Made by a program: the position numbers and the translations under genes
Notes under the pieces: generated by a model
Databases searched by the model: none
What the model was told of the DNA's origin: nothing
Seen by the model: only the letters and a program-made list of their open reading frames with translations
NCBI GenBank assembly: GCA_016212505.1
Contig: JACRGB010000043.1
Location: 1-53,334 of the forward strand
Length of the DNA: 53,334 nucleotides
Source: Microcaldota archaeon
GTDB taxonomy: Archaea; Micrarchaeota; Micrarchaeia; Anstonellales; Bilamarchaeaceae
Reading direction: 5' to 3'
Part shown: positions 2,335 through 17,385 of the stretch, one piece after another
Numbering within the stretch: position 1 is the first letter of the stretch
How the letters are laid out: each line of letters opens with the position of its first letter

Positions 2335-3708
2335 TTAGTCCAGAAGCTTAAGCACATCGGGCGCTATAATCGGCTTGTTAAGGGCTGAGCCGGGCAATCT
2401 TTTGAATTTGGCTATTGCTTCCTTAATCGCCTTTACTTCCTCAGGGCCTGCGGCCGATGTATGGGTCTGGACCCCGAGCGCTTTTAATTCATCGAGCGTA
2501 ATCAGGCGCATTTTGACCTTAAAATGTTTCATCACCAGGTTCAATATCGGGTCGTTTTCCACTTTCCTTCTTATGTTTAGTGTTTCCCTGCTGTTATTTC
2601 CGATTATATAGTAATCCCGGATATGTAGCTTAACTATAGAATAGGCGATCCCTCCTAATTTATATGGTCCAAAACTGCTAAATGGGCTTGTTACGTTCAT
2701 ACCTGTTGTAAGAAATACTGTCCCTGCAACGTCAAGACCCTCTCTTTTTTCTTTAGTCCTTAGGTATCTTACGAGGGCTTCCCTTGGGTTTGGAATATCC
2801 GGAGAGCATATGAGTCCGGCAATCGGCTTTTGTACGCTCCCCCTTCTGATTTTCTCAAGGTTATTTGCAGGAAGTGCGTCCATCACATATCTCATCATGC
2901 TGGCCAAATCATCAAGAACGGTATGTATTTGGGCGTTTTCATCCATCCGTATCTTTAATCCTGTACGGTAGTTGATTATTCCATAGTTTATGTGGATCGG
3001 GACCCGTGCAAGCTCATTATCCGCATCGAACATTGACCTAAGGTAAAGGTTGGATTTTTGCGGTTCCTTTAGCAGGTCAATGCTTGTAATAAAGCTCTCA
3101 ACAGTATCTCCTTCATGGGCATATGTGCTCTTCAGCAAACGTAGCAGCGTCTTATCATTATCCAATTTTGTTATTATCTCTTTTTTCTCTTGCTTATCGT
3201 AAAATTTTACTTCGGGTTTTAGCTCATAAAATAATGCGATCAGTTCTTTCCACACTTCGCTTGCATCCGACATGCCGCAGTTTACTGTGGAGTGATTATC
3301 AACTATTTCAACTTCATCAGGTTTATAGAGCAATTTCAGTTCTTTGGTCTTAAGCGCAATATCTGCATGGGCTGAGATCTGGACAATCGAACTATGGAGT
3401 ATTTTGCCTTTCTCATGGGGATCAACAGTCATTTTTTCCCCTATTTCGTTCAGGCACTGCCTCAGATTTCCTTTTATCAAGTCCTTTATTTCTATGTATG
3501 ATTGTTTGTTTACTACTGCGCCGGCAATATTTAGCCGGGATAAATCTACTTTTATTCCCCGGGCTGCGTATTCAATTATCAGGCTTCGCATTATTTCGTT
3601 TTCCATGGCCCCGCTGTCCCGCGAGTCACCGCATCTTATTGGAATAACGTGCTGTACTTCCTTTATTTCGTATGGCAGTTCTACTTTGAAATTAGACATT
3701 ACTGGCAT
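2335..3708 (-). CDS. Divergent beta-carbonic-anhydrase-like protein
   Basis: 457 residues, not recognised as a named family. The N-terminal 150 residues carry the order of landmarks of a beta-carbonic anhydrase: RCGDSR (Cys26, Asp28, Arg30, the CxDxR zinc/dyad motif), LNIAGAVVN (residues 59-67, in the place of the R-N-A-G-N segment), and VEIVDNHSTVNCGM (His139, Cys144, in the place of GHxxCG). The His-Cys spacing is four residues rather than two. The remaining 300 residues (basic, mixed alpha/beta) match nothing I know. It is transcribed away from the membrane-complex operon, whose own last gene and next neighbour are also carbonic-anhydrase-like, which supports the reading. The start at 3708 has AGGT eight bases upstream; the Met at 3699 is an alternative. 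Confidence 0.5.
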   Translation of the reverse strand: MPVMSNFKVELPYEIKEVQHVIPIRCGDSRDSGAMENEIMRSLIIEYAARGIKVDLSRLNIAGAVVNKQSYIEIKDLIKGNLRQCLNEIGEKMTVDPHEKGKILHSSIVQISAHADIALKTKELKLLYKPDEVEIVDNHSTVNCGMSDASEVWKELIALFYELKPEVKFYDKQEKKEIITKLDNDKTLLRLLKSTYAHEGDTVESFITSIDLLKEPQKSNLYLRSMFDADNELARVPIHINYGIINYRTGLKIRMDENAQIHTVLDDLASMMRYVMDALPANNLEKIRRGSVQKPIAGLICSPDIPNPREALVRYLRTKEKREGLDVAGTVFLTTGMNVTSPFSSFGPYKLGGIAYSIVKLHIRDYYIIGNNSRETLNIRRKVENDPILNLVMKHFKVKMRLITLDELKALGVQTHTSAAGPEEVKAIKEAIAKFKRLPGSALNKPIIAPDVLKLLD

Positions 3709-3938: not shown

Positions 3939-5924
3939 ATGGTTCCACTTGATTTATTTGTATTTGGTCAGCCTGTGCTGATTGTGTCTGCAATCGTTTT
4001 CGTTGCAGGCGCATTACTCTCTCTCCTTTTTGCAAGAAACTCCAAGTTAAGCTCTATTTTTGGTTTTGGCCTGGCCCTTGTTGCTTGCATACTCGCACTC
4101 GTTGCAGGTATAGCACCTTTTCTTGGGGCAGGTTCCGGCCCTATTGTGCTAGCTGACCTTGGATCGCAGCTTGGTACGCTTTCGGTCAGCGTAGATGCGC
4201 TATCCGGCCTCTTTGTCTCGATAATCGCATTTGTAGGGATTGCAGTTTCAATATACTCATTTGGTTATGTGGAGGAATATCATGAAAAAGGCTATAATGT
4301 CGGCCGCTTTGCTTTCCTCTATAATATGTTCCTGCTTTCCATGCTAATTGTTGTTACTTCACAGAACGTTCTTTTGTTCCTTGTTGTATGGGAGGGGATG
4401 GCAATCAGCTCGTTCTTCCTTGTAACATACGAGCATAAGGCAGAAGATGTCAAGTCTGCTGGTTTTAACTATCTTCTTATAACTCATGTAGGTGCGGTTG
4501 CACTAACATTGATGTTCCTTATTTTTGCAGGGGGCTCTGGCTCTTTGAATTTTAGTTCTTTCCAGACTGCCCATTATTCTCCGATGTTTGCAAGCGCCAT
4601 TTTCATCCTCGCACTGGTCGGATTTGGTTCCAAATGCGGTATTATTCCGCTCCATACCTGGTTGCCCCTTGCCCATCCGCAGGCTCCTAGCAATGTGTCT
4701 GCGCTCATGTCCGGCGTGATGCTCAAAGTCGCGATTTACGGTCTTGTTCGCGTGCTTTTCGGATTCCTTGGAATTATGAATAACGGTACAGAATTATGGT
4801 GGGGACTCCTGATCCTGGTTCTTGGTATGTTTTCAGCTGTGCTGGGCGTGCTCTATTCCTTGCTTGAGCATGACCTCAAGCGTTTGCTTGCGATGCATAG
4901 TATAGAAAACATCGGGATAATATTCATCGGCCTTGGCGCGGCTGTGTTATTTGCTTCTTTTAAGATGCCGGAACTTGCGGCACTCTCCCTTTTCGCGGCG
5001 CTTTATCATACCTTCAATCATGCAATGTTCAAAAGCCTGCTTTTCCTGGGCGCAGGAAGCATAGCGTATTCAACGCATGAGCGGAATATCGAAGAACTTG
5101 GAGGGCTTGCAAAGTTCATGCCCATAACTGCAATATTATTTCTTCTTGGCGCTGCATCTATTGCTGCAATTCCGCCATTAAATGGTTTTGTCAGTGAAGT
5201 TCTTACCTTTGAGGCACTGCTTGGCGGTATCGGCTCATCAACAACCCTATCGCTTGTGCTTTCCTTAGCAGTACTTTTCCTTGCGCTTACCAGTGCGCTT
5301 GCGGTCGGGGCATTTGTAAAAGCTTTTGGAATTCCGTTTCTCGGGCTGCCGCGCAGTTCCCATGCAACTAAAGCAAAAGAAGTTCCGAAATCAATGCTCT
5401 TCGGCATGAGTCTTTTGGGCCTTGCATGTATCGCTGCCGGAGTATTACCAACTATTGCCGCAGAGGCTTCTTTACCTGTATTTAATTCTCTTAATTTCCC
5501 CGGCCAAATCTCATCAGTAATGATCGCTGCACAAGGGCTCCAGACATCAACAATATTATTGATGCTGGTTCTTGGTTCAATTATTCTTGGTGGTGTAGTT
5601 TGGCTTATTGGCAGGAACAAAGTTCATCACGTGGGAGATACCTGGGCGTGCGGTTTTCCTAACCCAACCCCAAGCATGCAGTACTCAGCTGCAGGTTTTG
5701 CCATGCCAGTAACAAGGGCCCTTAAGGCGTGGCTCGATCCGCTGTCAAAGCCAGAAGCTTACGGGGCCAAATTATTTGATTATCTTATTTATTCGCCGCT
5801 ATCAGGCTTTTTCCATACTCTTGCGCCATTTTCAGCCATTTTCCATACTGGAAAACTTAGTGATTATCTGATGTACCTGATGATTACCCTTACCCTGGTA
5901 CTTGTATATGCAATGTCATCGTGA
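3939..5924 (+). CDS. HyfB/NuoL-like ion-translocating membrane subunit
   Basis: 661 residues, almost entirely transmembrane helices. It belongs to the proton-conducting transporter family shared by Complex I NuoL/M/N, Mrp antiporters and hydrogenase-4 HyfB. Channel residues are intact: Glu152 in VVWEGM (TM5 Glu), Lys232 in GSKCGIIPLHTWLP (TM7 Lys) and Lys263 in MLKVAIYGL (TM8). HDLKRLLAMHSIENIG marks the next conserved helix pair. It is the first gene of a six-gene operon; the next start overlaps the stop. Family role: cation/proton translocation driven by conformational change in the peripheral arm. Here that arm lacks redox centres, so the driving reaction is unknown. Confidence 0.9.
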   Translation: MVPLDLFVFGQPVLIVSAIVFVAGALLSLLFARNSKLSSIFGFGLALVACILALVAGIAPFLGAGSGPIVLADLGSQLGTLSVSVDALSGLFVSIIAFVGIAVSIYSFGYVEEYHEKGYNVGRFAFLYNMFLLSMLIVVTSQNVLLFLVVWEGMAISSFFLVTYEHKAEDVKSAGFNYLLITHVGAVALTLMFLIFAGGSGSLNFSSFQTAHYSPMFASAIFILALVGFGSKCGIIPLHTWLPLAHPQAPSNVSALMSGVMLKVAIYGLVRVLFGFLGIMNNGTELWWGLLILVLGMFSAVLGVLYSLLEHDLKRLLAMHSIENIGIIFIGLGAAVLFASFKMPELAALSLFAALYHTFNHAMFKSLLFLGAGSIAYSTHERNIEELGGLAKFMPITAILFLLGAASIAAIPPLNGFVSEVLTFEALLGGIGSSTTLSLVLSLAVLFLALTSALAVGAFVKAFGIPFLGLPRSSHATKAKEVPKSMLFGMSLLGLACIAAGVLPTIAAEASLPVFNSLNFPGQISSVMIAAQGLQTSTILLMLVLGSIILGGVVWLIGRNKVHHVGDTWACGFPNPTPSMQYSAAGFAMPVTRALKAWLDPLSKPEAYGAKLFDYLIYSPLSGFFHTLAPFSAIFHTGKLSDYLMYLMITLTLVLVYAMSS

Positions 5925-5929
5925 TTTTT

Positions 5930-7588
5930 ATGTTTGAAACACTTCCTCTTCCGGCTCAGGCTTTTCTGCAAATACTATTTGTCTTTGCATTTGCACCTTT
6001 ACTGATTGGTATAATGCGCAAAGTAAAGGCCCGTCTTCAGGGAAGATCAGGCGGTCCGATATTCCAGCCATATATCGATATTCTAAAGCTTCTTTCAAAA
6101 GGAACAGCAAAAAGCTCTATTAGTTCATTTATTTATGTTATTGCTCCCGTAGTTGGTTTTGTTTCAGTTGCAATTGCCGCACTTAGCCTTCCGATCCTTT
6201 CGCCAGTGCCGTTTCTTGTAATTAATATTATTATTTTTGCATATCTTTTCTCAATAGGCCGTTTCCTGACTGCCCTTTCAGGGCTTGATGCGGGAAGTTC
6301 TTTTGGAGGGCTAGGTTCAAGCAGGGAGATGTTATATTCTGTGTTGATCGAACCTGCACTTTTTGCAGTAATCCTCTTTATTGTTTCTTCCGGAAGTTTC
6401 AATACCATTATGCCAGTGGCAAGTGGTGCCAGCATCTCTTTCCTCTCAATATTATTATCTCCTGCAATATGGCTTGCAGCGTTGGGCCTTTTTGTAATAG
6501 TCCTTGCAGAAACCGGCAGGCTACCATTTGATAATCCCGCAACTCACCTTGAACTTACTATGGTTCATGAAGCTATGATATTGGAAAATTCCGGTCCTGA
6601 TCTTGCACTTATCGAGTGGGCACATGCGGCAAAAATATTTCTCCTTTTCTCGCTTATTGCGGTTCTCTTTGTACCTATCCTTCCCCAAGGAGACGTTCTT
6701 CGTCTTGGTTTTGTCCTTGGTATTTCCATAGTTCTCTCGGTACTTACTGCAGTAGTCGAAAGCATAAGCGTAAAAGTGCGGCTTTTCAAAATCGGAGAGC
6801 TCCTGATACTTGCCCTTCTTCTTGCAGTCCTTTCTTTCCTAACTACTATTTTTGGAGCTAACTTAGGGGCAGACCTTTTTACTGCTACACTTGTTTTCAT
6901 TATGCTTCTTGGTTCCCTGTATTTCATTTTCAGTGCAACTTTCAACCGCCGTATAGAGCTTTATGCCCTTCAGAGCCTTTGCCTTGCGCTTATTTTCCTC
7001 CAACAGGCCATCATTAGTGGTACATTTGACGGATATTTCCGTTTGGGTGCTACTGTGCTTTTCAAAGTAATAATAATGCCCTTACTATTCTACCAATTGT
7101 TCCGTTTAATGCCCGGTGAGATCAAGCTACTGCCCATACAGTTCTACAATGTGTTCCGCTCAACAAAGGAAGACCTTAGGTTAAAGCTGGATTTTGATCC
7201 ACTGTTTATGGGATCCCAAATATTGCCTGCGCGCGCCCTTATGTACTGCGGCATGCTGATTGTCCTTGCATTTGCGCTTTCGTCAATTTTTGGAAGCACC
7301 AATATCCTGTTGCCGCTTGCACTTTCTCTCATACTTATTGGGATGCTCATTATCGCAGTCAAGGCCCATCTCCTCTTGCAGCTGATGGGTTTCCTTTTGA
7401 TGGAAAATGGGGTCGTGCTGCTTCCAACCGCACTTCCGATACACCTTCCCTTTGTTGGTGATGCGCTTGCACTTTTTGATGTCGTAGTCCTGATAATTGT
7501 TGCAGTGCTGCTTGCACTTAAGATACGTGCTACTGTAGGCACCATGGATACCAAAAACCTTGATGACTTAATAGAAAAAATTCAATGA
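5930..7588 (+). CDS. HyfC-HyfE fusion (NuoH-like plus NuoK-like) membrane subunit
   Basis: About 552 residues. The first 310 are NuoH/HyfC-like: RLQGRSGGPIFQPYIDILKLL near residue 38, SSREMLYSVLIEP, and AETGRLPFDNPATHLELTMVHEAMILENSGP, the loop that faces the quinone cavity in Complex I. Residues 315-555 are HyfE-like (RRIELYALQSLCLALIFLQQ; KAHLLLQLMGFLLMENG with the membrane Glu). In hydrogenase-4 operons these are two genes, so this is a natural fusion, fixing their 1:1 stoichiometry. I start at the ATG at 5930, five bases after a GTGAT ribosome site, rather than the GTG at 5921 that overlaps the upstream stop. Confidence 0.88.
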   Translation: MFETLPLPAQAFLQILFVFAFAPLLIGIMRKVKARLQGRSGGPIFQPYIDILKLLSKGTAKSSISSFIYVIAPVVGFVSVAIAALSLPILSPVPFLVINIIIFAYLFSIGRFLTALSGLDAGSSFGGLGSSREMLYSVLIEPALFAVILFIVSSGSFNTIMPVASGASISFLSILLSPAIWLAALGLFVIVLAETGRLPFDNPATHLELTMVHEAMILENSGPDLALIEWAHAAKIFLLFSLIAVLFVPILPQGDVLRLGFVLGISIVLSVLTAVVESISVKVRLFKIGELLILALLLAVLSFLTTIFGANLGADLFTATLVFIMLLGSLYFIFSATFNRRIELYALQSLCLALIFLQQAIISGTFDGYFRLGATVLFKVIIMPLLFYQLFRLMPGEIKLLPIQFYNVFRSTKEDLRLKLDFDPLFMGSQILPARALMYCGMLIVLAFALSSIFGSTNILLPLALSLILIGMLIIAVKAHLLLQLMGFLLMENGVVLLPTALPIHLPFVGDALALFDVVVLIIVAVLLALKIRATVGTMDTKNLDDLIEKIQ

Positions 7589-7637
7589 AAGTAAAAAGAG
7601 GAAATGAGAAAAATTAAAGATGAAAAATGGTGAAAAT

Positions 7638-9104
7638 ATGCTTGAACTCATAATATTGTCCCTTATACTTGCGGGTGTTCTCTCATTCCTATTTTCAAAG
7701 AACCCGCGGTTTTGCGAGTTCCTTGCAATTGCAGGTGTTTCTGCTGCAGCGGGCCTTTCACTATTTTCCCTTTGGGGTTTTCTTCAGTCACCAACTGCCG
7801 TTACGGACTTTTATGGCCTCCTCTATATGGATTCTGTCTCCGTACTTTTCACTTCACTCACCGTGGTAGTCGCCTTTTTCGTTTTCATCTATTCTATCGG
7901 CTACATCCGCCATGAAGTGGAAGAAAATGTTGTGAATGAGAACCAGATTGGAGGCTACTATGGGTTGCTTTGTTTTTTCTTAGCTGCAATGCTTACCGCT
8001 ACCCTTGCATCAAATATTATAGTAATGTGGGCAGCTATTGAAGCCACTACCCTGGCATCGGTTTTCCTAATCAGTTTTTACAATACCACCAATTCGATTG
8101 AAGCTGCATGGAAGTTTTTCATAATCAACTCAGTGGGTATCCTTCTTGCCCTTGTCGGACTAATGTTCCTTCTTTATGCGGTTCTTCCTCCAGGTTCAGA
8201 ATCAGGAGCGGATTGGAGCAGCCTCCTACTTTTGCACGGAGGGGCGAACCTCTTCTTCCTGAAAATTGCATTTGCATTCATACTTGTTGGTTTTGGTACA
8301 AAAGTTGGCCTGGTCCCGCTTCATGTCTGGCTTCCGGATGCCCACAGCCAGGCACCTACCCCGGTCAGCGCGCTTCTTTCAGGAGTTCTTCTCAATATTG
8401 CTTTCTACGGGATCCTGAGGGCATATTCTATGCTGAGCCCATATCCAGATCTTGTTTCATTTGCATCCAGCTTGCTTATTGTTTTCGGGCTTCTTTCACT
8501 TGCCATTGGTGCCCTTCGTTTGTATTTCCAGAACAACCTCAAGCGGATGCTTGCATATTCCAGCGTTGAAAATATGGGCATTGTGGTGCTAGCGCTTGGG
8601 ATTGGAGGTCCTATCGGAATTTTTGCCGCGCTCTTCCACATGGTATCCCATTCACTGGCAAAACCCCTTGCCTTTCTTGCAAGCGGCATGATTGCTTTGG
8701 CATTTAAGACCAAGGAAATCAAGTCCATAACCGGAGCTGCCCAGGTGGTTCCTGTGGTTGCAATATTGTTTGTTTTCATCGCAGTAGGGATTTCCGGCAG
8801 CCCACCATTTGGCACATTCTTTTCCGAAATGGGCATTCTTGCAGCAACACTTTCTTCAGGGCAGTTTATCGTAGCAATTCTTTTCATACTATTTACTACG
8901 GTTACTTTTGCCAGTTTGCTTTACCGTACTTGCGGCATGAGCTTTGGCGAGAACTACGAAGATGTCCCGGTTTTTAAGCCCGACCTTAGTATGATGGCAC
9001 CTTTTGTAGTTCTTTTGGTACTTACAATTTATTTCGGCCTGATGCCCCCTGGCGAATTCACCAGACTTCTTGGGATGGTTGTTCAGGCAATAAGAGGTGG
9101 ATGA
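7638..9104 (+). CDS. HyfF/NuoM-N-like ion-translocating membrane subunit
   Basis: 488 residues, about 14 predicted membrane helices, second antiporter-like subunit of the complex. The TM5 glutamate (AAIEATTLASVF, about residue 135) and TM7 lysine (FGTKVGLVPLHVWLPDAHSQAP, about residue 222) are kept, as is LKRMLAYSSVENMG. The start at 7638 follows GGTG by five bases; an in-frame ATG at 7620 has no such site. It overlaps the next gene by a few bases, so translation is probably coupled. By family it forms a second ion channel beside the HyfB-like subunit. Confidence 0.9.
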   Translation: MLELIILSLILAGVLSFLFSKNPRFCEFLAIAGVSAAAGLSLFSLWGFLQSPTAVTDFYGLLYMDSVSVLFTSLTVVVAFFVFIYSIGYIRHEVEENVVNENQIGGYYGLLCFFLAAMLTATLASNIIVMWAAIEATTLASVFLISFYNTTNSIEAAWKFFIINSVGILLALVGLMFLLYAVLPPGSESGADWSSLLLLHGGANLFFLKIAFAFILVGFGTKVGLVPLHVWLPDAHSQAPTPVSALLSGVLLNIAFYGILRAYSMLSPYPDLVSFASSLLIVFGLLSLAIGALRLYFQNNLKRMLAYSSVENMGIVVLALGIGGPIGIFAALFHMVSHSLAKPLAFLASGMIALAFKTKEIKSITGAAQVVPVVAILFVFIAVGISGSPPFGTFFSEMGILAATLSSGQFIVAILFILFTTVTFASLLYRTCGMSFGENYEDVPVFKPDLSMMAPFVVLLVLTIYFGLMPPGEFTRLLGMVVQAIRGG

Positions 9105-9106
9105 AA

Positions 9107-10717
9107 ATGGCTGATGAAATTAAAAAATTCGCGTTAACACTTCAAAAATACCTTAAAGCCGGCGCTTTAGAACGTGTGGAAGAGCGGGGTAGCTGCATCT
9201 GGATGAAGGTCCGCCAGGGCGAACTAATCAATGCGTGCGAAGGGAGCCTGGAAAATGGCGCCATCTTTGATTCTGCTTTCATCTCTTCCTCTGCTGAAGG
9301 CAAGAATGCCAGCCGCTCTGCAAGTGCCAGCAGATCTGCAAATCCATTTGTTGCTTATTATCTCTTCCGCGTCCCGAGCCTCGGAATGATGCTCGTAATT
9401 ATGGCGCAGGGCAAAGAATTTAGTGCACTTTCAGCAAATTTAAATGCAGCAATATGGGATGAGCGGAAAATACAGGACCTTACCGGCCTCTTGCTCCAGG
9501 GTATTCCTGACTCAAGGCCGCTTATCTTTCATCCAGAAAGTGGGATGCCCGATAAGCATCCTGTAGGGGGCAAGCCGTTTATTAAACCAAAAAGTTCCGA
9601 TTACATAATAAAAGGTACTGGTATGGAAGGGGAATTTGAACTAGGTGTTGGTCCTGTGCACGCTGGCATAATTGAGCCAGGCCATTTTAGGGTCCATATC
9701 TTTGGTGAGCAGATTAACAAGCTCGAATTACGGATGTTCTACCTTCATCGCGGGGTTGAAAAAGCTGCGGAAGGCAAATCTTTGCAGGAAGCTCTGCCTA
9801 TGATCGAATCTATTTCAGGTGATGAAGCTGTTGCTAATGCGGTTGCCTATTGCCATGCAGTCGAGCACGCACTTGGCTTTAAAGCTCCCGAGCGGTCCGA
9901 ATTCATCCGTGCCATACTCATGGAACTTGAACGCATCTACAGCCACCTTTCTGATTTGGGTGGTATGCCGACCGATGTTGGTTTTTCTGTTGCTGCTTCA
10001 AGGTTTGCAGTCCTCCGGGAGGATATGATGAGGCTCAATCGTCAGGTTTCTGGAAGCCGCTTCCTCCATGGCATGTGCGTGGTGGGCGGGGTCAATAATG
10101 ACCTTGACAAAAACAAGCTTTTGCTAATTAACCATTCGCTTGAGAATTTCACAAAAGAGCTTGAGCGTGTGGAACAACTGACCCTCAAATCATCTACCTA
10201 TCTTGACCGTGTCTTTTCTACTGGCATAGTTACTTCCAGCGTTGCCAAGGAACTTGCTCTTGTTGGTCCTGTTGCCAGGGCCGCTGGCATAAGCTGCGAC
10301 CTGCGTAAGACACTTCCTTATTCAGCATACCCCAAAGTACCATTTACCGAGTCTATTGAAAAAAATGGTGATGTGCTTGCAAGGTTCCTGGTAAAGCTTG
10401 CAGAAGTCAAAGAATCCGCAAAGCTAATAAAATGGCTCATCTCCCACCTGCCTAGTGGCGCACTTCAGGCTGATTTGAAAGTACCAACTGATGAAGAGTC
10501 CGGGCGCATCGGTGTTGGATGGTCCGAGGCTCCGCGTGGAGCATGTTCGTTCCTTGTTGAACTAACTGAAGATGGAAAAATAAGGCGCCTTGCCTGCAGG
10601 ACCGCATCATTTAGGAACTGGCGCGGCATCGAGAACTTAACGCGGGGCAATATCGTGCCTGATTTCCCACTCATAAACAAAAGCTTTAATATGTCCTATG
10701 CAGGGACAGATCTGTGA
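9107..10717 (+). CDS. HyfG-like (NuoC-NuoD) large subunit lacking NiFe ligands (Ehr type)
   Basis: About 536 residues. An N-terminal NuoC-like part (to about 150) is joined to a NuoD/hydrogenase-large-subunit part: GVGPVHAG and GHFRVHIFGE (about 183-201), YLHRGVEKAAEGK, RIYSHLSDLGGMPTDVG, SGSRFLHGMCVVGGV. Where hydrogenases have CGICxxxH it reads SGDEAVANAVAY, and at the C-terminus, where they have DPCxxC, it reads VPDFPLINKSFNMSYAG. Neither CxxC pair exists, so no NiFe centre can be bound. This is the hallmark of energy-converting-hydrogenase-related (Ehr) complexes, whose substrate is not known. I use the ATG at 9107, seven bases after GGTG; the ATG at 9101 overlaps the upstream stop. Confidence 0.88.
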   Translation: MADEIKKFALTLQKYLKAGALERVEERGSCIWMKVRQGELINACEGSLENGAIFDSAFISSSAEGKNASRSASASRSANPFVAYYLFRVPSLGMMLVIMAQGKEFSALSANLNAAIWDERKIQDLTGLLLQGIPDSRPLIFHPESGMPDKHPVGGKPFIKPKSSDYIIKGTGMEGEFELGVGPVHAGIIEPGHFRVHIFGEQINKLELRMFYLHRGVEKAAEGKSLQEALPMIESISGDEAVANAVAYCHAVEHALGFKAPERSEFIRAILMELERIYSHLSDLGGMPTDVGFSVAASRFAVLREDMMRLNRQVSGSRFLHGMCVVGGVNNDLDKNKLLLINHSLENFTKELERVEQLTLKSSTYLDRVFSTGIVTSSVAKELALVGPVARAAGISCDLRKTLPYSAYPKVPFTESIEKNGDVLARFLVKLAEVKESAKLIKWLISHLPSGALQADLKVPTDEESGRIGVGWSEAPRGACSFLVELTEDGKIRRLACRTASFRNWRGIENLTRGNIVPDFPLINKSFNMSYAGTDL

Positions 10718-10726
10718 GGTATTGCT

Positions 10727-11269
10727 ATGTTGCTTGAAACTTTAAAACGCGCATTTGATTATTATCCTGATCGGGTGTCTGAGAAATCTCCAGACCCATC
10801 AGTACGTGAAGTTGCGCTTCTGCTCAAGCAGAGGCCACTATCGTTGTTTTCCCGTTCGATACATGTGCGTATGGTGGATGCTGGCTCGCCAAATGATGTT
10901 GAACTGGAGCAGCAGCTTATGATGTCGCCGCGCGTGGATGCCGAGCGGTTTGGCGTGCATTTTGTAGCTTCACCAAGACATGCAGATGTGCTTATTGTTA
11001 CTGGTCCAGTTACACAGAATATGCGCATTGCACTGATAAAAACTTATGAGGCAATGGCCGAGCCACGTGCTGTTGTTGCGGCCGGAGATGGTGCTTGCAC
11101 GGGATGGCCTTTTAAGGGCAGTTATGCTTTGGCCGGAGACGGGAGCGTTGAGAGCATCATTCCTGTCGATGTAAAAATCCCAGGAAACCCTCCAAATCCA
11201 TACGAACTTCTTGCGGGCATACTCAAGGCAGGTATGCTTATTGATAAGAAAAGGAAACAGCGCAAATAA
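10727..11269 (+). CDS. HyfI/NuoB-like small subunit lacking all four N2-cluster cysteines
   Basis: 180 residues. The framework is unmistakable: ERFGVHFVASPRHADVLIVTGPVTQNM (residues 73-99), then PVDVKIPGNPPNPYELLAGIL. In HyfI/NuoB relatives the [4Fe-4S] N2 ligands lie in GSCNGCELE, GDC and PGCPP. Here the same places read GSPNDVELE (Pro55, Val58), GDGACTG (Gly122) and PGNPP (Asn154). All four ligands are gone; the only nearby cysteine (Cys124) is two positions off. With the large subunit also lacking NiFe ligands, no electron path remains in this pair. No HyfH or HyfA ferredoxin-like gene follows. The start at 10727 follows GAGGT by six bases. Confidence 0.87.
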   Translation: MLLETLKRAFDYYPDRVSEKSPDPSVREVALLLKQRPLSLFSRSIHVRMVDAGSPNDVELEQQLMMSPRVDAERFGVHFVASPRHADVLIVTGPVTQNMRIALIKTYEAMAEPRAVVAAGDGACTGWPFKGSYALAGDGSVESIIPVDVKIPGNPPNPYELLAGILKAGMLIDKKRKQRK

Positions 11270-11301
11270 AAATTGGCTTGAATATTAGATGTCTGATTAA
11301 T

Positions 11302-12561
11302 ATGGCTCCTCCCTCCCAATCGCGCGGACTAAGGCGCCAGCCCTATTTGCCTCCTGAAGCTGAAACCTTTTCTTACCAAAGGGATAAGCCCCAACTTGCG
11401 CTAGTTTCTGGCGATGGTTCTGGTTCTAATGATTTGCGGGCTAAGCATCGCATCATTGGTTTGACTCCGCAGGAATCGGTAGAGCTGATGCTCCAGGGAA
11501 ATTATGATCATGCAGCGCGTCTTTCCGAACTTTCCCTTCATGGGGTTCCTTTGCAAGTTAGGAGAAATATACTAGCTGATCCAGAGAGCCGCCTTGTTGA
11601 TTATGTTGTGGTTGCCTGCTCTGACGCACGAATTCCGAGACTGGATTCTGAAAAAGATAATCTTGTAGGAATCCATATCCGCACTGCGGGAAATTATCTT
11701 TCAGTAACTTCACGGGAAGAATTCATCAAGATCAAGCAAGCAGTTTCAAATCTTCGTCCGAATGGTGTGCTGATTTTTCTGGGCCATCATGATTGTGGCG
11801 CGGTTAAGGAACTGGTTAAGTGGCTCAGGGCCGACGAATCGGGCGGTAAACTGGCAAAACCGCCAACCGGCAGCTTGGCAATGGATCATCTTATGAAAGA
11901 AATGTCCGGTTTAAGCCCATCCAATAATGAATTAAACCAGCGCAAGCGCGCAGTAAAGCGTTTGGGCCTGGGTGGGGATCAGGTTGTTGCTGCGCTAAAC
12001 TATGACTGGGAAAAAGGAGGTTTTGAAATAATTAAGGCCAAATCTTCAGAACGGCTAACCTTGATTGTTGACCATTGGAACGAACTTGCCACTATTGCCA
12101 AAGGAGAACTTGAAAAACAAAAATTAACCCTCTCCGCTTTACTTGCAAAACAGCGCCCGCATGCCATTGTGGTCGGGACTCCTGATTTGCCTTATAGCCT
12201 AGGGACAATTATGCAGTCTGAGCAGAATGAAATTTTTTCGGTAACTGCGACCTCACGCGGCCTGGATAAGACTGACCTTGCATCGATAATTTATTCTTTG
12301 AGCCACGGGGTTAGCCATATTGCCCTTACTACGCCTGGATTACGGCGCGATGAGAAAACTATACAAAAATTATTCAAAAAATGGAAGGCCGAGCTGCGCC
12401 AGTCGCTCAAGGAAATTCCGGAGCTTCTTGATAAATTCGACAGCGGTGCAATTTCGCTCAGCTTATTTAGGTATGATCTGGATAGTGGAAAACTCATGCC
12501 TATGAAATCTGCTCCCTCTTCTGCAACTGCCTCTGACCCAATACAATTAGGTTCGGCCTAA
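11302..12561 (+). CDS. Beta-carbonic anhydrase with a degenerate second carbonic-anhydrase-like domain
   Basis: 419 residues from the ATG at 11302; a TTG eight codons earlier is less likely. The first domain has a complete beta-carbonic-anhydrase site: CSDAR (Cys106, Asp108, Arg110), IRTAGN (126-131), and GHHDCGAV (His162, Cys165). These bind zinc and hydrate CO2 in the family. Around residues 287-345 the same layout returns without ligands: VVGTPDLP for the CSDAR strand and ALTTPGLRRDE for the GHxxCG strand, a pseudo-domain likely for dimer-like packing. The gene starts 32 bases after the HyfI-like stop with no visible promoter between, so it is the last gene of the membrane-complex operon. 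Bases 12564-12571 (T run) may end the transcript. Confidence 0.75.
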   Translation: MAPPSQSRGLRRQPYLPPEAETFSYQRDKPQLALVSGDGSGSNDLRAKHRIIGLTPQESVELMLQGNYDHAARLSELSLHGVPLQVRRNILADPESRLVDYVVVACSDARIPRLDSEKDNLVGIHIRTAGNYLSVTSREEFIKIKQAVSNLRPNGVLIFLGHHDCGAVKELVKWLRADESGGKLAKPPTGSLAMDHLMKEMSGLSPSNNELNQRKRAVKRLGLGGDQVVAALNYDWEKGGFEIIKAKSSERLTLIVDHWNELATIAKGELEKQKLTLSALLAKQRPHAIVVGTPDLPYSLGTIMQSEQNEIFSVTATSRGLDKTDLASIIYSLSHGVSHIALTTPGLRRDEKTIQKLFKKWKAELRQSLKEIPELLDKFDSGAISLSLFRYDLDSGKLMPMKSAPSSATASDPIQLGSA

Positions 12562-12766: not shown

Positions 12767-14110
12767 ATGGGAAGATTAGCGTATGCTGAACAAGCTGCTG
12801 CTGCTCGCCCACTCATCCGGGCCCAAAAACCGCTTACTATCCCACAATCTATCGGTACTCTGGTGGAAGGTTTTAGGACCGGATTCCAGGCACGTGATCA
12901 TCGCTCTTCTTTAAGCGGTATGAGCTTTTTCCGGATTGCCGGCCAGGCAACCAACCTATCTGATGAAAATTCCCGAAGTGAAATTTTAAGAGTTTTAAAT
13001 CTTATAAAACCCGGAGGGGCATTTATTGTCCTTGGCCATGGCGGCCTTATTCCCTGTGGGGCTGTTGCTGCCAAGAAAAAATCAATGTCTTTTGCTAGAA
13101 GAGGCAAAGAATTCTCTGCTCCAGACTCCGTACGTTTGCTTGTCGATCATGTTTCGCCTAAAGTTCGGGGATTGGCATCTCCTTTTGCCGAATTAGAAAA
13201 TTCCCAGGCACAGGCATTTGCAATATTGCGCGATCCGGAACTAGCTAAAATTATAAAAAAGAAAAACCTTACTGTGGTTGCAGCTGTTTGCTCATTGAGT
13301 AAACAGAATGGGGTCGGCAATGGGGTGACTCTGGTCTCTCCCGACCTTCCAGCGCCTATTCATTCAGCCAAAGTTTACTTTTTGCCAATAAACCGTGGCA
13401 GGGAATGGAAGGTGAATCTTGCAACTTTAAAAGCAGCTGTTCGTGATTGTGAAGCTGGTCGGACAGATACTGATAATGTCCGAGAAAAAAGTCGAGTTGA
13501 ACGCGAACTATTTATAAGGCATCAAAAACTATTTGCTTTGAGAGAACAGCTTGTTAACGGGCTTCATAAAATCGTTCATGATAAGATTGACCTAAGCAAG
13601 CAGTATGCCCATGCGTTATTTGTCTTTGACCAGCTATTGATGCGCAGCGTTTTGGATCCGTTGGAGCAGTATCTGGATGTTGGCGGAATATCCTGCATGG
13701 ATGCCCGTTTGGCTCCAAATACCCCTGATGGTCCAAAACAACTCTTTAGGATCCCTCCCAATCACTCTGCTTCTGTTAATGTTGAAATGAATGGTGAAGT
13801 CAAATTTTCCTATGATGATATTGGTTCTATGGAATATGCATATGGCCATATTGCAGGTGTTAATAGCCTAAGTCCAAATGATCCAGGCAATGGGCACACC
13901 ATCATTTTAGATACTTCGGCAACATTTGCCCATGCCCAAGTTATCAGGGAAGCCCTTATTGGGGAGCAGCTTGTTGCCCAGGCAACTGATGGCGGAAAAA
14001 CAATTACCCTTGTAAGTTTCACTGGAACTGAACTGCTCATTAGAAATCCCGGATTTAAAATAGACCTTAGAATTCCTTATCGTCCTGAATATGATCTTTT
14101 CCGCGTCTGA
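12767..14110 (+). CDS. Tandem carbonic-anhydrase-like protein with complementary half active sites
   Basis: 447 residues, two beta-carbonic-anhydrase-like halves. In the first, QARDHR (residues 41-46) replaces CxDxR: the Cys is Ala42 but Asp44 and Arg46 remain. FRIAGQATN (55-63) and VLGHGGLIPCGAV (His91, Cys97, five residues apart rather than two) follow. In the second half CMDAR (Cys310, Asp312, Arg314) is intact and FRIPPNHS (327-334) stands for the RNAGN segment, but the GHxxCG place reads ILDTSATFAHA (about 380-390). Thus one half has the His-Cys pair and the other the Cys-Asp-Arg motif. Whether they meet in one zinc site is inference. It follows the operon in the same direction from its own promoter and may form a complex with the upstream anhydrase. 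Confidence 0.6.
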   Translation: MGRLAYAEQAAAARPLIRAQKPLTIPQSIGTLVEGFRTGFQARDHRSSLSGMSFFRIAGQATNLSDENSRSEILRVLNLIKPGGAFIVLGHGGLIPCGAVAAKKKSMSFARRGKEFSAPDSVRLLVDHVSPKVRGLASPFAELENSQAQAFAILRDPELAKIIKKKNLTVVAAVCSLSKQNGVGNGVTLVSPDLPAPIHSAKVYFLPINRGREWKVNLATLKAAVRDCEAGRTDTDNVREKSRVERELFIRHQKLFALREQLVNGLHKIVHDKIDLSKQYAHALFVFDQLLMRSVLDPLEQYLDVGGISCMDARLAPNTPDGPKQLFRIPPNHSASVNVEMNGEVKFSYDDIGSMEYAYGHIAGVNSLSPNDPGNGHTIILDTSATFAHAQVIREALIGEQLVAQATDGGKTITLVSFTGTELLIRNPGFKIDLRIPYRPEYDLFRV

Positions 14111-14144: not shown

Positions 14145-14345
14145 CGGCCAACTAAGTAATGCCGATTGTTGGCCGTGGCAAGAAACGCTACGCGTTTCTT
14201 GACTGTGTCTCAAAAACTCGCTGAGTTTTTGGACAGTCGTGAAACAATAGTTTCACAACATCTTGAAGCTTTGCTTCAAGGACAAGTATGTACGATCCAT
14301 CTTCAACTGCGGAGCAGTTGGAGAGACAGTGACTCAAGGTCACTG
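14145..14345. repeat. Array of seven consecutive short hairpins
   Basis: The 317-base gap 14111-14427 has no gene but is packed with inverted repeats: CGGCCAAC/GTTGGCCG (14145-14175), CAAGAAACGC/GCGTTTCTTG with loop TAC (14179-14201), GACTGT/ACAGTC (14201-14238) enclosing CAAAAACTC/GAGTTTTTG, GTGAAAC/GTTTCAC (14239-14256), CTTGAAGC/GCTTCAAG (14262-14280), CAACTGC/GCAGTTG (14304-14320) and CAGTGAC/GTCACTG (14327-14345). Loops are 3-5 bases except the first. No stem sequence is shared, so it is not a CRISPR or simple tandem repeat. It may be a structured RNA, a compound terminator or a palindrome hot-spot. Confidence 0.75.
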
Positions 14346-14396
14346 GAACTTTTTTTGTTGGATTGGTATACTTCAGTCCTGCAAGATCTCCAATAC

Positions 14397-14406
14397 TTTT
14401 ATAATA
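14397..14406 (+). promoter_or_regulatory. TATA box of the antiporter gene
   Basis: TTTTATAATA is centred about 26 nt before the ATG at 14428 and no GGTG site intervenes, so the antiporter transcript is probably leaderless and starts outside the hairpin array. Confidence 0.5.
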
Positions 14407-14427
14407 AGCCCCTTTCTAATTTCCCCA

Positions 14428-15705
14428 ATGAAAAAGCACACCCATTCATTAGCCCTCCTCGTACTGCTAGTTTTTGTTGTATTTGCTATGTTTATTGCTG
14501 GAAACAGCATTTTTGGTTCTGTAATTGGGGAAAAATACATATACTTTGAAATCGCGCTTCTTTTCTTACTGGGTATTTTGGGTGAATTTATTGCAAAACG
14601 AACCAATCAGCCATCCGTAGTATTGCTGATGCTCTTTGGCGTTATCTTGGGCCCTTCGTTTTTACTTTTTGCAAAAGGCTACTTCTCATTTTTACCCATC
14701 CAGCAGATACTGCGCTCTCATGAATTGTTGAGCGTTTTTTCCCAGTTCGGTGCAATAATACTCTTGTTCCGAATCGGGCTGGAAAGCAAAGTGCTCTCTA
14801 TTTTTAATAAGGAAAATTTTGTTATTGCAGTATCCGGGATGGTTGTCCCGTTTTTAGTCGGTTATGGGTATGCTTCTTTAAGCGGCGAAAGCTTTGTCTA
14901 TTCCCTGTTTCTTGGAGCTGCATTAAGCGCAACCGGAATCACTGTCATAGCAGCCTTACTCCGCGAACTGCACTTAGTTAAAAAAGAATTCGCGCAGATA
15001 ATTATCGGCGCTGCGGTTATTGATGATATTTTGGGTTTGCTGGTGCTTTCACTGCTGATAAACAACCCTGCCTCATTTTCACTTCCTGTGGCTCTGGTTA
15101 CCTTATTGATCTGCATCTTATTTATTTTAGGAAGCCTGATAGTAGGAAATTATATCGTTCATTTCCTTGATGAGGATGAGCAACTCTCAAAAAGAAGATT
15201 GGCGCTAGTGGTTGTGCTTGCTTTATTTCTTGGCTATGTGGCCGAATTTATTAACATCAACGCCATTTTTGGAGCCTTCATTGCAGGATTGATATTAAAC
15301 CATTCAAAACATTCAAAAACCATTGACGAAAAGACTGAAATATTGCAAATCCTATTCACCCCGATCTTCTTTATTGGCCTTGGAAGCTATGTAGATGTCA
15401 ATTCTGTAATTTTATTTTTTGGCTCAATAATCATAATCTCATTCCTTGCAATAATTTCAAAAATTGTTTCCTGTTATGCTGCGGGCATTGCCCTTAAGAT
15501 GGACCACCGCAAGGCACTTCTTGTTGGAGTCGGCATGGCCCCGAGAGGGGTATTTGCACTTTTAGTCGCATCAATAGGATTAACCAGTGGCATCCTAAGT
15601 GCTGCCCAGTACTCAATAATTTCTGCGATGGCCATTATCAGCACGGTGATTGTTATGCCCGTCCTTGGGAATTTGTTGACCAAAACTATCAAGAGCAAAG
15701 TATAA
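14428..15705 (+). CDS. Kef/NapA-type cation:proton antiporter (CPA2 family)
   Basis: 425 residues from the ATG at 14428; the frame is open further upstream, but that part is hairpin array and its TATA box lies at 14397. Twelve or so membrane helices are evident. Family landmarks are IALLFLLGILGEFIAKRT, GVILGPSFL, FRIGLESKVL, GAALSATGITV and the double aspartate AAVIDDILGLLVLSLL, which carries the transported ion in CPA2 proteins. MAPRGVFALLVASIGL marks the C-terminal helices. No TrkA-N regulatory domain is attached. Expected role: Na+ or K+ exchange for protons at the plasma membrane. Lying beside an ion-translocating complex, it could share the same ion circuit, but this is inference. Confidence 0.85.
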   Translation: MKKHTHSLALLVLLVFVVFAMFIAGNSIFGSVIGEKYIYFEIALLFLLGILGEFIAKRTNQPSVVLLMLFGVILGPSFLLFAKGYFSFLPIQQILRSHELLSVFSQFGAIILLFRIGLESKVLSIFNKENFVIAVSGMVVPFLVGYGYASLSGESFVYSLFLGAALSATGITVIAALLRELHLVKKEFAQIIIGAAVIDDILGLLVLSLLINNPASFSLPVALVTLLICILFILGSLIVGNYIVHFLDEDEQLSKRRLALVVVLALFLGYVAEFININAIFGAFIAGLILNHSKHSKTIDEKTEILQILFTPIFFIGLGSYVDVNSVILFFGSIIIISFLAIISKIVSCYAAGIALKMDHRKALLVGVGMAPRGVFALLVASIGLTSGILSAAQYSIISAMAIISTVIVMPVLGNLLTKTIKSKV

Positions 15706-16452: not shown

Positions 16453-17385
16453 TTATTCCCTTATCTCCACCGCATCCACTACCCCATCGCCATCTTCGTC
16501 AAATCCTTCAATAACTTTTGCCATTATTTTTTTGTTAAACTTATTTCCCTCTTCTATCTCATCCATTTTCTTAACTAAGGCAATTACTGCTGCCCGCGTT
16601 CCGTGCTGGTTTAATCCTGCAACAACCAAAATTGAACTCGTTGATGAACTCGCTGATGAAGTTGGTCCGCTCGAAAAAGGATTTTTTATTAATTCAATTA
16701 CGCCAATATTTTCCGAATACCTTTTTTTCGATAATGTGCTCTCGACCTCAAAATTATTGGTGTCAAACCTGATTGGCAGAGATTTTGGCATCGAATTATT
16801 TATCTCGGCAATCAGGGTATTTACTTTCGGTCCGCCTGCAAGGACCAAGTTCCGTTTCCGGTCGTCAGTTTTGAGCTGCGTATCAAGCGAATAAAGCGGA
16901 AAATCAAAGCTCGCATAGTTCCCAAGATACATGGCCAGCTCAAGCATCCCCAACTCGCTTCCCCTTGCGCGGTATTTTCCATGTGGGTCAGGAGATCCGA
17001 CCACTATAAGCCCGTCAAAAAATCCGTTTTTGATAAATGGCCCAAGTAATTTTGGCTCTTTTTTCTTTGGTTCACTAGCCTTTCTCCAACCCTTTTCATT
17101 TAAGATTAACCCTATTGCGTCCGCTTTGGAAGTATATTTTTTTGCAACCCCACCATTTCTCTCGCTATATCCGCTAAACTCAATGAGCCCTGCTTTTTCA
17201 AGCAGCTGAATATGGTAATATACGCTCTGGATGGGGATTCCGATTTTCCTGGCTATTTCTGCAGGGTACGATGGGGCAGCGGAAAGGAACCTCAATATCC
17301 CGATTCGTTCATCCGATAGTGCGTTCGTTTTTTTTGGAGTAACCTCAATGCATTCAATTGATTTTTCATCTTTGATTAATCTCAT
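16453..17385 (-). CDS. Winged-helix regulator fused to an S-layer-C-like domain
   Basis: 310 residues. Residues 20-90 are an ArsR-like winged helix (IGILRFLSAAPSYPAEIARKIG, then SVYYHIQLLEKAGLIE as recognition helix). After a linker, LVLAGGPKVNTLIAEIN, IGVIELIKNPF and ILVVAGLNQHGTRAAVIAL resemble the C-terminal domain of Methanococcales S-layer proteins (GGPxVN, VIxVIKNP, VVAGxDREGTRAA). The end, FDEDGDGVVDAVEIRE, looks like a calcium-binding DxDxDG loop. No membrane segment is seen, so this is probably a cytoplasmic DNA-binding protein that uses a surface-protein fold. Its upstream region, shared with glmS, holds two palindromes. The S-layer comparison is from memory of the family and is tentative. 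Confidence 0.6.
   Translation of the reverse strand: MRLIKDEKSIECIEVTPKKTNALSDERIGILRFLSAAPSYPAEIARKIGIPIQSVYYHIQLLEKAGLIEFSGYSERNGGVAKKYTSKADAIGLILNEKGWRKASEPKKKEPKLLGPFIKNGFFDGLIVVGSPDPHGKYRARGSELGMLELAMYLGNYASFDFPLYSLDTQLKTDDRKRNLVLAGGPKVNTLIAEINNSMPKSLPIRFDTNNFEVESTLSKKRYSENIGVIELIKNPFSSGPTSSASSSTSSILVVAGLNQHGTRAAVIALVKKMDEIEEGNKFNKKIMAKVIEGFDEDGDGVVDAVEIRE
16455..16485. repeat. Right 31-nt imperfect direct repeat, within the 3-prime end of the winged-helix gene
   Basis: Partner of 15723-15753. It encodes GVVDAVEIRE and reaches to three bases short of the minus-strand stop. The mntA-hepT pair lies between the two copies, as expected if a roughly 730-bp cassette had entered at the gene end and restored it. 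Confidence 0.75.

Follow-up and report, generated by a model that had tools for sequence, protein, structure and literature searches.

What does a subunit of the complex I and group 4 hydrogenase superfamily do when the ligands of the proximal (N2) 4Fe-4S cluster, a feature of that superfamily, are all absent? The question is raised by the NuoB-like small subunit encoded in the window, by which we mean the whole stretch of 53,334 nucleotides analyzed here (contig JACRGB010000043.1 of the Microcaldota archaeon assembly GCA_016212505.1). A preliminary description, made from the sequence alone, had claimed that this HyfI-like subunit has replaced every N2 cysteine, and alignment with cluster-bearing relatives confirms the claim: the four ligand columns fall on P55, V58, G122, and N154 (Table 1), and the motifs read GSPNDVELE, AAGDGACTG, and IPGNPP. 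The protein matches the NuoB family in Pfam (PF01058, E = 1.6e-20) and NCBIfam (NuoB PRK06411, E = 8.5e-30), and an alignment of ten Micrarchaeota small-subunit orthologues, used as the query, matched the formate hydrogenlyase subunit HycG (7z0s_G) at E = 5.7e-29.

Table 1. Features of the window discussed in the text (positions are those of the whole stretch)
Feature	Position	Strand	Start, evidence, or remark
Divergent two-domain beta-CA-like protein, 457 residues, upstream of the operon	2335..3708	-	C25/D27/R29, H113, C143 (alignment numbering)
HyfB/NuoL-like antiporter-type membrane subunit, channel Lys/Glu kept	3939..5924	+	
Fusion of NuoH/HyfC-like and HyfE/NuoK-like membrane subunits	5921..7588	+	
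HyfF-like antiporter-type membrane subunit, channel Lys/Glu kept	7620..9104	+	
Large subunit, NuoC-NuoD/HycE-like; NiFe ligands absent, pocket motif VGPVHAGIIEPGHFR kept	9101..10717	+	
Small subunit, HyfI/HycG/NuoB-like, all four N2 ligands replaced	10727..11269	+	ATG start, 180 aa
Codon P55, lost N2 ligand Cys1 site	10889..10891	+	Alignment
Codon V58, lost N2 ligand Cys2 site; Val in 14/14 Micrarchaeota	10898..10900	+	Alignment
Codon G122, lost N2 ligand Cys3 site	11090..11092	+	Alignment
Codon Cys124, sole well conserved small-subunit Cys	11096..11098	+	Val in 2/14 Micrarchaeota orthologues
Codon N154, lost N2 ligand Cys4 site	11186..11188	+	Alignment
CA1, beta-CA-like, next gene after the small subunit	11278..12561	+	Pfam Pro_CA, E = 7.5e-8
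CA2, CA-like, half-sites reversed (H91, C97, then C310, D312, R314)	12767..14110	+	Alignment

In the window, a single operon encodes NuoL/M-, NuoH-, NuoCD-, and NuoB-like subunits, which is the architecture of the Ehr complexes, reportedly defined in a paper by Marreiros and others. In the accessible parts of the published accounts, Ehr are group 4-like complexes that lack CxxC motifs and whose function is unknown (PMC10284858, PMC10432482, and PMC6349859), and the Ehr of CPR bacteria form a separate monophyletic group without metal-binding cysteines (PMC7304191); the accessible part of this CPR account does not take up the small subunit or carbonic anhydrase (CA). The five genes of the window operon lie head to tail with overlaps or gaps of no more than 31 bases (HyfB-like, HyfC-HyfE fusion, HyfF-like, HycE-like, and small subunit), and the matches to PF00361, the NuoL-like membrane subunit family, have E-values of 7e-50 and 7.5e-53. 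The large subunit is without the CxxC pairs that bind NiFe, which bears out the earlier assignment to an Ehr-type complex. In its subunit types, its loss of the NiFe CxxC pairs, and its large-subunit pocket and C-terminal motifs the complex resembles the Ehr of Nitrospira, Omnitrophota, and CPR bacteria, but the Ehr outside Micrarchaeota and CPR differ from it in keeping four N2 cysteines (44/45) and in rarely having CA-like neighbors (2/45). Among solved structures, formate hydrogenlyase/hydrogenase-4 and MBH (PDB 7z0s and 6cfw) supply the best homologues for the four subunits that were searched; compared with these, the NiFe site and all FeS ligands are missing here.

Other parts of the complex have been kept. 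In the HyfB, HyfF, and NuoH-like (HyfC) subunits, the marked Glu, Lys, and His positions, which we take to belong to the channels and the acidic path with roles as in complex I, show hardly any variation in the two groups without the cluster, the Micrarchaeota and the CPR bacteria. The NiFe CxxC pairs are missing from Ehr-type large subunits, nearly all of which, cluster-less or cluster-bearing, have the pocket motif VGPVHAGIIEPGHFR and the C-terminal motif DFPLINKSFNLSY. The operon encodes no other FeS protein, and an ORF with a ferredoxin-type motif (C-x2-C-x2-C-x3-C) was found at none of 14 Micrarchaeota loci (in the window, within the first 16 kb), at 2 of 13 CPR loci, and at 10 of 45 other loci. 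Among 28 pairs of small subunits, the 11 with unsaturated dS have dN/dS values of 0.07 to 0.33, and this subunit is still under purifying selection. The missing N2 ligands, the lack of another FeS protein, and this selection together point to a role other than electron transfer through N2; the earlier statements that the N2 ligands are gone and that the kept fold is selected for something else both stand. Redox work might still persist if electrons bypassed N2 with the help of an organic cofactor (a flavin or a quinone-like compound) or of a partner with its own cofactor. The pocket and C-terminal motifs are identical to those of cluster-bearing Ehr, as this proposal would have it, and one cluster-less CPR small subunit (L210:13656-14402) keeps a fused, N-terminal ferredoxin-like domain, but the Micrarchaeota loci, with their lack of ferredoxin-type motifs, contain no redox partner gene, and the proximal cluster has been lost in two lineages. 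We regard this continued redox role as improbable.

The distribution of the ligand loss was followed through four sets of genomes. The small-subunit search of 84 genomes of the order gave 15 matches, namely the window, nine sequences at 58 to 79% identity, and five at 43 to 46%; the last five belong to a different operon and all fall within seven cluster-bearing hydrogenase-type loci. Two further genomes (G050 and G051) have, at contig ends, a hyfB gene adjoining a relative of the two-domain CA-like gene at 2335-3708. In 301 genomes of the phylum there were 14 strong matches (E < 1e-80), four of them outside the order. Named genomes contributed 56 loci, eight from Micrarchaeota, three from CPR, and 45 others that include Nitrospirota, Omnitrophota, Verrucomicrobiota, Pseudomonadota, Myxococcota, and three archaeal hydrogenase-like loci; the closest named relatives of the window small subunit are Candidatus Micrarchaeota MAGs. 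Finally, 379 CPR genomes gave 15 matches, 12 to a complex of the window type and three to cluster-bearing enzymes of other types, and the CPR set used here comprises 14 loci (these 12 and two from genomes found before), the fragment L212 included.

All four N2 cysteines are lost in 14/14 Micrarchaeota small subunits, with the same pattern throughout (S/P, V, G, N/S). In CPR, at least three are lost in 13/13 small subunits (the fragment L212 being left out of this count), five of which keep only Cys2. The four cysteines are intact at 44 of the 45 other related loci, the exception being a Nitrospira without one of them, and at 7/7 hydrogenase-type loci. Since the same pattern recurs in every Micrarchaeota sequence and dN/dS is low, it is evident from these comparisons that the loss in the window is neither chance nor sequencing error. 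Two observations concern cluster-bearing relatives. The Nitrospira sequence L080:9887 reads GSYNAC, in which only the first N2 cysteine is missing; this could reflect either an error or the onset of ligand loss. In a group 4 hydrogenase-type operon (L031:7229-9295, genome G004, and also L009), the small subunit carries what looks by eye like an intein-like insertion with a homing-endonuclease-like domain, placed immediately ahead of the CNGC ligand motif.

The large-subunit tree has 75 sequences, and in it the 14 from Micrarchaeota form one clade (support 100/100), which is joined by the cluster-bearing Aquicultor sequence L079 (99/94); eleven CPR sequences cluster elsewhere (84/76), and the long branch L210 is separate. 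A single origin of cluster loss, with the Micrarchaeota and the eleven CPR sequences as one group, was rejected (p-AU 0.00109, L210 being excluded from the test for its very long branch). Because the Micrarchaeota clade lies beside a cluster-bearing relative, the CPR sequences lie elsewhere, and their union is rejected, cluster loss has at least two origins, one in Micrarchaeota and one in CPR.

Loss of all metal ligands is also what a decaying, functionless remnant would display. That reading is scarcely credible, for dN/dS is 0.07 to 0.33 in the unsaturated pairs, five intact subunits are found across the order and class, and the channel residues are kept. An alternative metal site, in which for example Cys124 of the small subunit and Cys482 of the large subunit hold a cluster or Zn, is very unlikely. 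Cys124 lies two residues from the lost third ligand and is present in 12/14 Micrarchaeota, and Cys482 is present in 13/14, but each is thus missing in some members, the Cys124 position is Cys in only 2/13 CPR small subunits, no CPR small-subunit cysteine reaches 80% conservation, and two cysteines are insufficient for a 4Fe-4S cluster. Cys124, which the preliminary description had named as the residue that might overturn its interpretation, was accordingly rejected as a general solution, Val replacing it in two orthologues. As a whole, that interpretation is supported in part; beyond it lie the extension of the loss to an entire lineage of Micrarchaeota, the separate loss in CPR, and the CA-like genes beside the complex.

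These CA-like neighbors offer a hint of what the kept subunit serves. Three of them are found in the window. CA1 starts with TTG 8 bases past the small-subunit stop codon (an in-frame ATG lies at 11302) and matches a beta-CA profile built without CA1-like ORFs at 1.9e-14. In CA2 the first half matches beta-CAs with a probability of 92.5%, and its model is too poor to use (pLDDT 44). In the CA2 proteins of the window, L018, and L023, the H..CG half-site sits in the N-terminal half and the C-x-D-x-R half-site in the C-terminal half. Beta-CAs have these in the opposite order, and it looks as though each of two repeats had lost the half that the other kept; beside the CA2 copies of L018 is a 759-residue ORF (L018:9149-11428) that looks by eye like an intein-interrupted ORC1/Cdc6. 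The third protein, encoded upstream of the operon on the opposite strand, has no Pfam match, and a PDB sequence search with its family gave two matches, neither of them CA-related (best 3fyd, E = 0.0053). In all eight aligned members of this family, the Zn ligands Cys, His, and Cys and the Asp-Arg dyad are invariant. An AlphaFold2 model from six sequences (pLDDT 73.6, pTM 0.72) was compared with known structures by VIA-align, and the first 26 rows were all beta-CA-fold proteins, a COS hydrolase among them, with 1ddz at the top (Z 12.9, rmsd 3.5 over 263 residues) and CsoSCA at Z 11.3; Foldseek gave no match below E = 0.001 for the same model, and hhalign of the family against beta-CAs gave a probability of only 42.5%. 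The predicted fold and the C-D-R-H-C pattern resemble those of the two-domain beta-CAs of Porphyridium (1ddz) and CsoSCA (2fgy), from which the protein differs in having about 10% identity to them. The model suggests that the 2335-3708 protein likely has a beta-CA fold, which does not fix its substrate. Elsewhere, at L165 (G043), a gene of this family adjoins a canonical beta-CA gene, and no complex is seen on that stretch. Farther along the window, 16453-17385 encodes a winged-helix domain joined to an S-layer-like outer domain (PF05124).

CA-like neighbors were counted at all loci by scanning as many as two ORFs on each side, each 150 residues or longer, for a C-x-D-x-R/K plus H..C motif; since this motif was written after the Micrarchaeota neighbors and the CPR loci had been viewed, the result is a count and not a blind test. 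The motif was present beside 12/16 Micrarchaeota, 5/14 CPR, and 2/45 other loci, that is, at 17 of 30 cluster-poor loci versus 2 of 45 others (Fisher p 4e-7), or, by ORF, in 24 of 92 neighbors versus 2 of 129. As a background, 17 of 1,043 ORFs of the other loci match it, by chance or otherwise, and one of the two matching neighbors among them (L053) looks like a spurious frame. Inspection by eye, which removes L053 and adds L208 and G045 (a family fragment at a contig end), gives 13/16, 6/14, and 1/45. No CA-like neighbor was recognized at three of the 16 Micrarchaeota loci (G074, G276, and G229) or at eight of the 14 CPR loci. The neighbors are of several types. In Micrarchaeota they belong to the 2335-3708 family (eight aligned), CA2 (four aligned), and CA1; others are proteins of 682 to 740 residues (G035 and G042), a 325-residue Pro_CA-like protein (L118), and a 257-residue protein (L120); and in CPR there are CsoSCA-like (L049 and L209), CDCA-like (L205), and other types. 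Pfam matches were to CsoSCA_cat (5.4e-8 for L049 and 0.0017 for L209), Pro_CA (6e-5 for L118), and CDCA (0.0058 for L205). The genes also vary in place, being upstream or downstream and on either strand. Such repeated recruitment to one locus is the strongest sign of a functional link; only three tree-independent contrasts are available, too few for significance.

Co-occurrence was also counted in genomes of the order. The 2335-3708 family is present in 10/12 complex-bearing genomes versus 7/72 others (p 4e-7), or in 8/10 versus 9/74 (p 2e-5) without G050 and G051, which were recognized as complex-bearing only through the CA-like gene; the search profile was made from copies beside the complex and so favors finding such copies. 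It speaks against the reading preferred below that relatives of the CA-like genes also exist apart from the complex, the 2335-3708 family in the 7/72 genomes of the order where no complex was seen, and CA2 relatives in G001, G009, G014, and G017, with weaker ones in G022, G024, G068, and G071. A canonical beta-CA (E < 1e-15) was detected in 0/12 complex-bearing genomes of the order versus at least 30 of at most 72 others (p 0.003 with that denominator), and over all 16 complex-bearing genomes only in G276, which has no CA-like neighbor. A carbon-concentrating mechanism serving RuBisCO is not supported, RuBisCO being present in 7/12 bearing versus 55/72 other genomes.

We infer that the CA-like proteins may bind the complex as well as Zn and act on CO2 or bicarbonate in a manner coupled to ion flow. 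Our tentative preference, a reading that may well prove wrong, is that this Ehr-type complex has become a redox-free, ion-gradient-coupled CO2/bicarbonate machine with CA-like partners, DAB-like without being a DAB. All metal-based redox chemistry would have been lost, leaving an ion-gradient-coupled conformational machine in which the flow of protons or Na+ through the antiporter-like subunits would cause a structural change by way of the NuoH/NuoD/NuoB-like module, and this change would make CO2 hydration (or bicarbonate dehydration) by the CA-like partner one-way, as proposed for DAB2. According to PMC13144422, DAB2 works as a vectorial CA powered by the PMF. It pairs a NuoL-like subunit with a protein that has two beta-CA-like domains, the Zn ligands Cys351, His524, and Cys539, and the dyad Asp353-Arg355. 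DAB/DAC (DabA-DabB) share with the window a NuoL-like subunit, a two-beta-CA-domain protein with a Cys-Asp-Arg/His/Cys site, and the absence of electron transfer. The window differs in having five genes of complex I type, with NuoH-, NuoD-, and NuoB-like ones among them, in CA-like partners from outside the DabA Pfam family (no PF10070 match at E up to 1 among ten window proteins), and in a HyfB that retains the channel residues, whereas DabB2 is described in the same text as lacking ion-pair motifs. By architecture and NiFe loss the complex is an Ehr, and by family it is not a DAB; it may nevertheless work like one.

The cyanobacterial NDH-1MS (photosynthetic complex I) resembles the present proposal in using a complex I scaffold for vectorial CO2 hydration; in the accessible text, photosynthetic complex I provides redox-driven carbon concentration (PMC6981117), and NDH-1MS is driven by ferredoxin oxidation (PMC13144422), whereas the window complex is without N2 and an encoded donor module. 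Electron input of that type was not found here, the N2 ligands being absent and the ferredoxin-type motif occurring at 0/14 Micrarchaeota loci. The main competing explanation, which we think unlikely yet worth serious attention, makes the complex an ion channel or antiporter (Mrp-like) without redox chemistry that helps to keep pH or Na+ steady, with the CA-like genes sharing a role in pH and bicarbonate homeostasis and no direct mechanical coupling. In its favor, every channel residue is kept, farther along the window lies a gene for a CPA2 Na+/H+ exchanger (14263-15705), ATP synthase genes adjoin some CPR loci, and several loci have no CA-like neighbor, but the strictly kept large-subunit pocket and the NuoB/NuoD module would be superfluous for a pure antiporter, and the repeated recruitment of different CA families is left unexplained. 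The F-type ATP synthase genes are adjoining or near cluster-less CPR operons at L216 (L066), L215 (L049), L217 (L051), L208, and L205.

In the open-licence literature, we found no description of a link between Ehr and carbonic anhydrase or of cluster loss in the small subunit, and the accessible account of Micrarchaeota (PMC12892359) mentions neither carbonic anhydrase nor complex I. It has long been debated how complex I couples redox chemistry to ion pumping. A natural complex without redox metals that retains the channels, the pocket, and the acidic residues of NuoH type would allow this question to be tested directly, since ion flow in it would be neither driven nor used by electron transfer through N2. 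Somewhat more speculatively than the conversion itself, these complexes could represent a third architecture for vectorial CAs, in which a complete complex I-type membrane arm is joined to a NuoH/NuoD/NuoB-like coupling module, the redox metals have been lost at least twice, the former NiFe/quinone pocket has a non-redox role in coupling or in binding a ligand, and the CA-like partners are interchangeable. If this is true, the ion-translocating half of complex I has been naturally separated from the redox half. If the CA link is functional, two groups of microbes with very small genomes and poorly known energy metabolism would have an inorganic-carbon system, and relatives of complex I would have been turned into CO2 machines more than once.
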